NCBI RefSeq assembly: GCF_020622265.1
Contig: NZ_JACNMQ010000009.1
Coordinates: 62,001 to 126,000 of the forward strand
DNA length: 64,000 nt
Direction of reading: 5' to 3'
Source: Halomonas sp. M20
GTDB lineage: Bacteria; Pseudomonadota; Gammaproteobacteria; Pseudomonadales; Halomonadaceae
How positions within the stretch are numbered: the first letter of the stretch is position 1; every line of letters starts with the position of its first letter. This document shows, in pieces, positions 35,269 through 37,238 of this stretch. The notes beneath the pieces were generated by a model that saw only the letters and a program-made list of their open reading frames with translations, had not been told where the DNA came from and made no database searches. The position numbers and the translations under genes are program-made.

Positions 35269-36522
35269 ATGGCAGATAGCGTAACCTCGCGACGCAATCT
35301 ATGGCGGCGTATTCCTTTATGGCAGAAGATTCTTGTCGGCCTGGCACTCGGGGTGCTTGCCGGGGCGCTCATGGGCGAAGACGCCAGCGTCTTCAAACCC
35401 ATCGGCGATATCTTCATCAGCGCCATCAAGATGCTGATCGTGCCCCTTGTATTCTCGACTCTGGTTGTCGGTATTACTGCCATGCGTGACCCACAGAAGA
35501 TGGGGCGCATCGGCCTGCGCACTATTGTGCTTTATCTGATCACCACCGCCTTCGCCATCAGCATAGGCTTGCTGGCCTCGACCATCTTTCAGCCGGGCGC
35601 GGGGTTGGATCTGAATTTCGACAAACCGGTCCAGGCGGAAGAGGCGCCGTCGCTGGTGCAAATACTCGTCGATCTGGTGCCTCAGAATCCCATCGATGCC
35701 TTGGCCAACGGCAACATTCTACAGATCATCGTGTTCGCCATCGGTTTGGGAATTTCCTTGACTCTGATCGGTGAAAAAGGCGAGCCGGTGGTACGTTTGT
35801 TCGAGAGTTTTGCCGAAGCCATGTACAAGCTTACCGAGATCGTCATGGCCTTTGCGCCCTTCGGTGTGTTCGGCCTGATTGCCTATGTCTCGGGTAGCTA
35901 CGGGCTCGACGTGCTGTTGCCGCTGGCCAAGGTAATCGGCGTGGCTTATCTAGCCAGTGTGCTGCATGTGCTGCTGGTCTACTCCGGGCTGCTGGCACTG
36001 CTGGGGCGCTTGAACCCGCTGCGATATTTAAGCGGCATTCTCGATGCGCTGGTGGTCGCCTATTCGTCGGCATCTTCCTCAGGCACCTTGCCGGTATCCT
36101 TACGTTGTGCGCAGAAGAACCTTGGCGTGTCCGAAGGGGTATCGGGCTTCGTGCTGCCAGTGGGTGCCACCATCAACATGGATGGCACCGCTATCTACCA
36201 GGGTGTGGTTGCCCTATTCATCGCCCAGCTGGTCGGCGTCGATCTCTCGCTGATGGATTACGGCATGATCATCGTCACCGGTACCCTGGCGTCGATCGGC
36301 ACCGCCGGGGTTCCTGGCGCTGGCTTGATCATGCTCTCTATCGTGCTGGCTCAGGTAGGGCTGCCGCTGGAAGCCATCGCCGTGATTGCCGGCATCGACC
36401 GCATCCTCGATATGGCGCGCACCAGCGTCAATGTGGCCGGCGATTTGATGGTGACGACCCTTGTCGGAAAGAGTGAAAAGGAGTTGAACATGAATATCTA
36501 CAACGGCCCCAATCGTGTATAA
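35269..36522 (+). CDS. Dicarboxylate/amino acid:cation symporter (DAACS family)
   Basis: A 417-residue symporter of the GltP/DctA family, which imports glutamate, aspartate or C4-dicarboxylates with sodium or protons. The serine-rich re-entrant loop is AYSSASSSGTLPVSLRC and the following NMDGTAIYQ motif is intact, as is the MARTSVNVAGD motif that binds the substrate. I placed the start at the ATG at 35269, with GGAGA upstream; an earlier in-frame codon lacks support. It follows the CobW-type gene by 148 bp, so it may be a separate unit. Confidence 0.92.
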   Translation: MADSVTSRRNLWRRIPLWQKILVGLALGVLAGALMGEDASVFKPIGDIFISAIKMLIVPLVFSTLVVGITAMRDPQKMGRIGLRTIVLYLITTAFAISIGLLASTIFQPGAGLDLNFDKPVQAEEAPSLVQILVDLVPQNPIDALANGNILQIIVFAIGLGISLTLIGEKGEPVVRLFESFAEAMYKLTEIVMAFAPFGVFGLIAYVSGSYGLDVLLPLAKVIGVAYLASVLHVLLVYSGLLALLGRLNPLRYLSGILDALVVAYSSASSSGTLPVSLRCAQKNLGVSEGVSGFVLPVGATINMDGTAIYQGVVALFIAQLVGVDLSLMDYGMIIVTGTLASIGTAGVPGAGLIMLSIVLAQVGLPLEAIAVIAGIDRILDMARTSVNVAGDLMVTTLVGKSEKELNMNIYNGPNRV

Positions 36523-36590
36523 CTTTTGACGCTACACTGCGCTCAGCAGCCTACATCGACTTTTTTGCAATAAATACTGTACAGCCTGCG

Positions 36591-36596
36591 TATAAT
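36591..36596 (+). promoter_or_regulatory. -10 element of the GGA-rich small RNA
   Basis: A perfect TATAAT lies here, with only a weak -35 (TTGCAA about 20 bases upstream). A strong -10 with a poor -35 fits an activator-dependent promoter. I did not find a clear GacA box (TGTAAG-N6-CTTACA) upstream. Confidence 0.6.
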
Positions 36597-36602
36597 ACAG
36601 GT

Positions 36603-36774
36603 ATAGTAAATCCTGTGAGCAAGGACAGCGTAAAGTTGCCAGGACGGCAACCAAGAACCCGCTGTTGCTATGGAAAGCAGCAGCCTAGCATCACCTCGGA
36701 TACCAGGAAGGTAGCACGGAAGCCCCGCCGTCAAGGATGACGAAAAGCCCAACTTCGACAAGTTGGGCTTTTTT
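36603..36774 (+). ncRNA. CsrB/RsmZ-type small RNA with seven GGA motifs
   Basis: No protein frame fits here, but the sequence folds into a chain of short hairpins that show GGA in their loops. GTTGCC-AGGAC-GGCAAC is at 36635-36651, a 9-bp stem with ATGGAA in the loop at 36661-36684, TACC-AGGAA-GGTA at 36701-36713, and GTCA-AGGA-TGAC at 36730-36741. Further GGA motifs lie at 36623, 36698 and 36718. The RNA ends in an 11-bp terminator stem with a TTTTTT tail (36745-36774). GGA in hairpin loops is the binding signature of CsrA/RsmA, so this RNA probably titrates that regulator. The 5' end is estimated from the TATAAT box. No similarity search was possible. Confidence 0.82.
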
Positions 36775-37061: not shown

Positions 37062-37238
37062 ATGCAGAAGCAAGCGCGCGTCGAGCCCATCTTTGACGCT
37101 ACGGATATGAATGAAAAGATCATTGGCTGGAACGTGATCGATGAAAGCCAGCCGGAAAATGAAACCGTGGTTTCAGAGCATGAAACTCAAGAAGAGGCTA
37201 TCAAAGCCGCTGAGGAATTCGAACAGCGTGAATTCTGA
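37062..37238 (+). CDS. Small acidic protein of unknown function
   Basis: A 58-residue protein (MQKQARVEPIFDATDMNEKI at the start) with an acidic, helix-prone second half (HETQEEAIKAAEEFEQREF). A GAGG sequence lies eight bases before the ATG at 37062. It has the size and appearance of small DUF-type proteins in halomonads, but I do not recognise it. It follows the metallothionein gene by 24 bp and is probably co-transcribed. A weak hairpin (GGCCCCC and GGGGGCC, 37252-37273) follows its stop. Confidence 0.62.
   Translation: MQKQARVEPIFDATDMNEKIIGWNVIDESQPENETVVSEHETQEEAIKAAEEFEQREF

Follow-up and report, generated by a model that had tools for sequence, protein, structure and literature searches.

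The stretch of DNA that we analysed (the window) comprises 64,000 nucleotides of Halomonas sp. M20, and the coordinates of its features are positions within it. A gene of the sodium:dicarboxylate symporter family (PF00375; 35269-36522) and a prokaryotic metallothionein gene (PF02069; 36870-37037) lie on the plus strand, and between them, on the same strand, is a candidate CsrA/RsmA-sequestering small RNA at 36603-36774, in agreement with the first-pass annotation, which had placed the RNA between a DAACS gene and a metallothionein gene. The metallothionein start codon is 95 nt past the end of the terminator of the RNA. After the metallothionein, a 58-aa gene at 37062-37238 has a weak likeness to DUF2188 (20.4 bits against a cut-off of 22), and its start was recognised by eye 3' of the metallothionein gene in the related genomes G012, G006 and G013 as well.

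The claim of seven GGA motifs in about 170 bases, four of them in the loops of separate hairpins, was confirmed in full at 36603-36774, where the motifs start at 36623, 36642, 36672, 36698, 36706, 36718 and 36735. All four hairpins are on the plus strand and have perfect stems: hairpin 1 (GTTGCC-AGGAC-GGCAAC; 36635-36651) has 6 bp and the loop AGGAC, hairpin 2 (GCTGTTGCT-ATGGAA-AGCAGCAGC; 36661-36684) has 9 bp and the loop ATGGAA, hairpin 3 (TACC-AGGAA-GGTA; 36701-36713) has 4 bp and the loop AGGAA, and hairpin 4 (CGTCA-AGGA-TGACG; 36729-36742) has 5 bp and the loop AGGA. The three GGA motifs outside these loops are at 36623-36625 (in AAGGAC), 36698-36700 (in CTCGGAT) and 36718-36720 (in CACGGAAG). 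The strong terminator described earlier is also present, as an intrinsic terminator at 36743-36774 with a 13-pair stem (36743-36772) and a run of U's. The mechanical open reading frames overlapping the RNA are one of 41 aa on the plus strand, with a GTG start, and two on the minus strand, of 40 and 72 aa, with TTG starts; where the corresponding gaps of sister species align over these frames, they are almost unrelated in sequence.

The 5' end of the RNA is placed approximately. The TATAAT that had been noted at the start of the RNA is indeed found at 36591-36596 (plus strand) and may be a -10 box, but reading the sequence upstream revealed no good -35 element at the usual spacing of 16-18 nt. 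The best predicted plus-strand promoter is TGTACA-N18-TATAGT at 36578-36607 (9/12), which overlaps the RNA start, and the two promoter candidates define the 5' end only to within about 10 nt. Alternatively, the RNA could be a CsrA-binding 3' UTR of the symporter mRNA that arises only by read-through and processing, in the manner of RsmW of Pseudomonas aeruginosa; such a 3' UTR may also control the stability of the symporter message, and it would be compatible with CsrA titration. From the symporter stop (36522) to the RNA no terminator-like site was listed, which favours this origin, as does the same layout in RsmW, whereas the TATAAT just before the RNA and the promoter overlapping its start argue against it, with the reservation that promoter-like matches are common here (5 in the region against 2.0 expected). 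We consider an exclusive 3'-UTR origin possible, if distinctly short of probable.

A GacA box upstream of the RNA was sought with the consensus TGTAAG-N6-CTTACA (12 scored positions). The best site in 36203-36620 matched 8/12, a score reached or exceeded by 751 of 2000 mononucleotide shuffles of the 150 nt upstream, and the earlier statement that a canonical GacA box is missing holds.

The number of GGA motifs is unspecific when used as the only criterion, since many stretches of the window contain at least seven of them (105 of 12,766 on the plus strand and 67 of 12,766 on the minus strand). The hairpins are more informative. Among 2000 dinucleotide shuffles of the RNA, none reached four loop-GGA hairpins and two reached three, and with stems of at least 5 bp the locus is the sole place in the window, on either strand, with three loop-GGA hairpins per 172 nt. 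A loose rule (a loop of 3-8 nt with any GGA, on a stem of at least 4 bp), applied to 154 records with 731,486 bases, returned 23 four-hairpin rows among 137 clusters, and six of the 23 were the window locus; as other four-hairpin clusters turn up, a loose hairpin count is likewise unspecific by itself. A strict rule, chosen after the loose scan, called for three hairpins in 180 nt with AGGA or ANGGA loops, the latter because the available part of one review states that CsrA prefers ANGGA (PMC7366521). Under this rule 10 rows were left in the same 154 records, namely six for the window locus and four for other Rsm-like RNAs. In 100 records unselected for RNA (590,785 bases), which partly overlap the 154 and are mostly surroundings of symporter and metallothionein genes, the strict rule returned the window locus alone, in three records.

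Folding bore out the array of hairpins in part. The global minimum fold has -60.2 kcal/mol (z -3.58) and does not contain all four hairpins, and the drawn four-hairpin structure scores -49.1. Hairpin 2 is firm, with pair probabilities of 0.91-1.0, but competing pairs are preferred over the other three in global folding, where pair probabilities are 0.48-0.49 for hairpin 1, 0.28-0.38 for hairpin 3 and 0.15-0.19 for hairpin 4. When the pair span was limited to 40 nt, the fold scored -57.4 with hairpins 1, 2 and 4 formed and hairpin 3 not as drawn.

In the related genomes G012 and G006, the gap between the symporter and metallothionein genes contains two loop-GGA hairpins and a terminator, and the same elements follow the symporter gene in G004, whose contig stops shortly beyond them. 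In these sister species the hairpins and the terminator lie within about 170 nt of the symporter, an arrangement that also speaks for a 3'-UTR origin. The sister hairpins read AGAG[C/T]ACGG[G/A][A/G]TGCTCT and [T/C]AGCC-AGGAA-GGCT[A/G]; in the alignment, read by eye, the second shows a single compensatory change, from T-A to C-G, with its GGA loop unchanged, and the loop of the first is CGGGA in G012, which is not ANGGA. This pair was found only in G012, G004 and G006 (L081-L083) among 68 transporter loci scanned downstream, that is, 72 loci minus four (L148, L149, L151 and L152) from Metabacillus, Treponema and Ignavibacteria, and the scattered clusters of two or three hairpins at other transporter loci look unrelated. 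No such RNA was found at the symporter locus of M. ilicicola (L053/L084).

The flanking genes of the window genome (G000) and G012 are well conserved in DNA sequence, with 1111/1251 identical positions in the symporter gene and 159/168 in the metallothionein gene. Identity across the gap is 170/253 (0.67), inside the range spanned by 100 shuffles (mean 0.64, maximum 0.71). Between G000 and G006 the gap identity of 0.712 equals the highest value among 100 shuffles (0.712), and between G012 and G006 it is 0.73, clearly over the shuffle maximum of 0.69. Hairpin 3 is similar to the second hairpin of the RNA in the sister species (AGCCAGGAAGGCT), with which a short piece of it, CCAGGAAGG, aligns; because this motif is also seen in further RNAs of the kind, it speaks only weakly for descent. 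The first-pass annotation had made its reading depend on loop-GGA hairpins in related species, and two such hairpins lie at this place in three sister genomes, but M. ilicicola has no RNA and the sequence has largely turned over. From these comparisons the window RNA looks lineage-specific, with sisters that appear to carry a shorter two-hairpin version of largely different sequence.

The small conservation of sequence would also fit a terminator region whose structure includes GGA hairpins by chance and which has no role in CsrA control, as would the several GGA motifs hidden in the global fold and the other GGA-hairpin clusters of the loose scan. The absence of four loop-GGA hairpins from all shuffles, the uniqueness of the locus under the strict rule in the unselected records, and the loop-GGA hairpins that three sister species show at this position even though the sequence has turned over all stand against chance, and we judge it unlikely.

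A cis-acting role as leader or attenuator of the metallothionein gene, exerted by way of the terminator, would suit an RNA that lies upstream on the same strand with its terminator at the distance from the start codon given above. On reading, however, a CTTCTAYGCTRR motif precedes the metallothionein start in G012, G006 and M. ilicicola. Since the motif is kept in M. ilicicola, where the RNA is missing, it suggests a promoter after the terminator and the RNA is probably not a metallothionein leader; we rejected this function as very unlikely.

Sequence searches did not place the RNA in a named family. In the comparison with the CsrB, RsmY, RsmZ and RsmX models that had been proposed as a check, and with CsrC, no Rfam gathering cut-off was reached; at relaxed thresholds RsmY was the sole Rsm family among the matches listed, which omit two lower-scoring matches of the same clan, with 15.4 bits where the cut-off is 57. 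Of 13 loci that were compared with Rfam, none reached a cut-off. A genome search with the Rfam RsmY model (E<=10) gave matches in 13 of 14 control genomes, none above the cut-off, and weak RsmY matches therefore carry little meaning; the best loci of the RsmY search, after hairpin scanning and reading, yielded the Rsm-like candidates L061, L064, L075, L076, L078 and L079. BLAST of the RNA against plasmids and phages returned no match. Against 58 genomes, its own included, BLAST returned the RNA itself and one 33-base match in G019, which was taken as chance after its surroundings were read, and against the 14 genomes of the genus (E<=1) it returned the RNA itself and short matches only, of which the four opened (L057-L060) look like coding DNA. 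The four-hairpin form was thus found by BLAST in one genome only, among the 58 genomes and the 14 of the genus.

We built a model (R1) from six other RNAs of the genus, with their terminators and with the window RNA left out. R1 scores the window RNA at 29.9 bits, its top match within the window; the best terminator-only match has 22.7 bits, and part of the score is owed to the terminator. In a genome search with stricter filters, the window RNA was not among the R1 matches in G000. In a later search, 54 of 66 matches score at least 27.8 bits, the value of the next match below the window RNA (L213, minus strand), which has GGA hairpins and a terminator. At E<=0.01, matches to R1 were present in 35 of the 61 family genomes searched, and four genomes had 8 or 9 each; the weakest of these matches are probably terminators.

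A second model (R2), free of the terminator, was made from the 42 best of the 66 matches; the 24 left out included the window RNA along with further likely Rsm RNAs. Its one modelled hairpin covaries: 94.9% of the cells are paired against 84.6% in shuffles, and 46 cells are changed on both sides against 13.9 in shuffles. R2 does not match the window RNA: at 36603-36635, which lies outside the hairpins, it scores 6.6 bits (E 1.8). Nor does it find any match in G000 at E<=0.05. At E<=1e-5 it gives 69 matches in the 14 genomes of the genus, spread over eight of them (19 in G005, 14 in G009, 12 in G001, 7 in G008, 6 in G011, 5 in G003 and 3 each in G002 and G007), and none in G000, G004, G006, G010, G012 and G013, G012 having one at E 0.0115. 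G001, G005, G008 and G009 supply 11 of the 42 model rows, so that they match themselves there by construction; some matches are adjacent and may be a single RNA, and the G005 match at C17:9422 has no terminator in the 45 bases shown.

GacA-like boxes are frequent at R2 matches. Scored at 10/12 or better within 250 nt, with TGTC counted as TGTA, such a box is present at 14 of the 27 places examined, with all 19 matches in G005 and 8 of the 14 in G009 as the scope. In ten of the 14 cases the box precedes the model start by exactly 62 nt, and one box is shared with a neighbour. As a control, ten upstream stretches of this kind were shuffled by mononucleotide, and 24 of 2000 shuffles reached a score of 10.

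The genome of the window has one csrA gene (G000:C8:510762-510917; PF02599, 92.5 bits, cut-off 27) and one regulator of the GacA/UvrY type above the cut-off (284.9 against 280 bits). Two other candidate Rsm RNAs were listed there by the R1 genome search. The first, L184 (G000:C10:231400-232400, minus strand), has a GacA box, TGTAAGAAATAACCTACA, that matches 11/12. Good matches to it in G012, G006, G004 and G013 combine 12/12 GacA boxes with two conserved AGGA hairpins; G005, G009, G001 and G010 contain weaker, partial matches. The second, L185 (G000:C8:522300-523400), is rich in AAGGA and is matched in G012 and G004, and its best site for a GacA box has only 7 or 8/12. L185 sits after a reading frame taken by eye for a regulator of the CRP/FNR type. 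Elsewhere in the genus, Rsm-like RNA adjoins csrA-like frames (MLIL...), two of them at L064 in G005 and one at L078 in G009, and L061 in G001 is perhaps likewise by a csrA, whose start was read from the sequence alone.

Taken together, these results point to the window RNA as a likely small non-coding RNA that would sequester CsrA/RsmA. The earlier designation as a CsrB/RsmZ-type RNA survives as a functional class, given the hairpin cluster beyond chance, the sister hairpins, the csrA and gacA/uvrY-type genes and the other Rsm-like RNAs, but not as a named family by sequence, as neither Rfam nor R2 recognises it. Because R2 has no match and the R1 match is partly terminator, the RNA would act in the manner of an Rsm RNA and need not descend from that family.

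We propose that the RNA would be transcribed from a promoter of its own (about 36578-36607) or as read-through of the symporter gene, that pairs of its GGA sites would hold CsrA dimers, and that the accumulated RNA would pull CsrA off mRNAs and relieve their control. Since the RNA has no GacA box and another candidate in the same genome has one, the signal is probably other than GacS/GacA; the RNA may feed this signal into the CsrA pool, perhaps in connection with the expression of the dicarboxylate/amino-acid symporter. Tentatively, and at a little short of even confidence, we suggest that the window RNA is a CsrA sponge of recent birth and independent of Gac, which arose at the 3' end of a transporter gene, and that its family is one in which such sponges turn over and multiply unusually fast: some genomes of the genus have as many as 19 Rsm-like matches, a good number of them with GacA boxes, and the window genome and its nearest sisters have none of that set but a few divergent ones. 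What is new here is the sequence of the RNA; its presumed kind, a CsrA sponge, is already known. If the sets of up to 19 matches prove to be expressed, they would raise the question of why many sponges for one protein are useful.

RsmY, RsmZ and RsmX of Pseudomonas and CsrB and CsrC of Escherichia coli are arrays of loop-GGA hairpins with a 3' terminator. The window RNA shares this array and the terminator at its end, and unlike them it falls below the Rfam cut-offs (for RsmY as given above) and has no GacA box. It is like the RNAs of R1 and R2 in belonging to the same bacterial family and in its loop AGGA hairpins, its terminator and its R1 score, and it differs from them in the missing R2 match and in the GacA-like boxes at about half of the R2 places, mostly at the fixed upstream distance. 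In Alcanivorax dieselolei, another marine gammaproteobacterium, CsrR1 and CsrR2 are predicted CsrA-related sRNAs, of which CsrR1 comes from the hfq 5' UTR and, according to the available part of the report, is found in two species only (PMC9788540); they are predictions like the window RNA, and we liken them by description.

For Halomonas anticariensis, a table in a 2020 review lists GacS-GacA and gives the CsrA-antagonising sRNA as 'Unknown' (PMC7366521). Among the titles and abstract openings listed from open-licence literature on the Csr-Rsm system of Halomonas and Chromohalobacter and on multi-copy Rsm RNAs, no paper on these RNAs was found, and no native Csr/Rsm sRNA of Halomonas is named in the available parts of PMC12889724 or PMC13414033. 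The window locus and its relatives are testable candidates for the gap in that table. The largest set that we noticed in the same table is that of Azotobacter vinelandii, with nine sRNAs (RsmZ1-7 and RsmY1-2; PMC7366521), and up to 19 Rsm-like matches per genome would exceed it if they prove to be expressed.

The closest precedent for the window RNA is RsmW of Pseudomonas aeruginosa, which binds RsmA, comes from the 3' UTR of PA4570 and is not activated by GacA, as described in the available text of PMC4950607. RsmW has seven GGA motifs, three of them in outer loops (PMC4950607), and the window RNA also has seven, with four in hairpin loops; in both, no terminator was found between the upstream gene and the RNA and no GacA box is close by, and a narrow distribution is common to the two (for RsmW, PMC7366521). 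The two RNAs differ in their neighbouring genes and in the TATAAT at the start of the window RNA, and for RsmW the binding of RsmA and the origin from the PA4570 3' UTR are demonstrated, whereas for the window RNA CsrA binding is predicted and a 3'-UTR origin is possible. If the proposed function is true, the window RNA would add, beside RsmW, a case of a CsrA sponge beyond the control of GacA.
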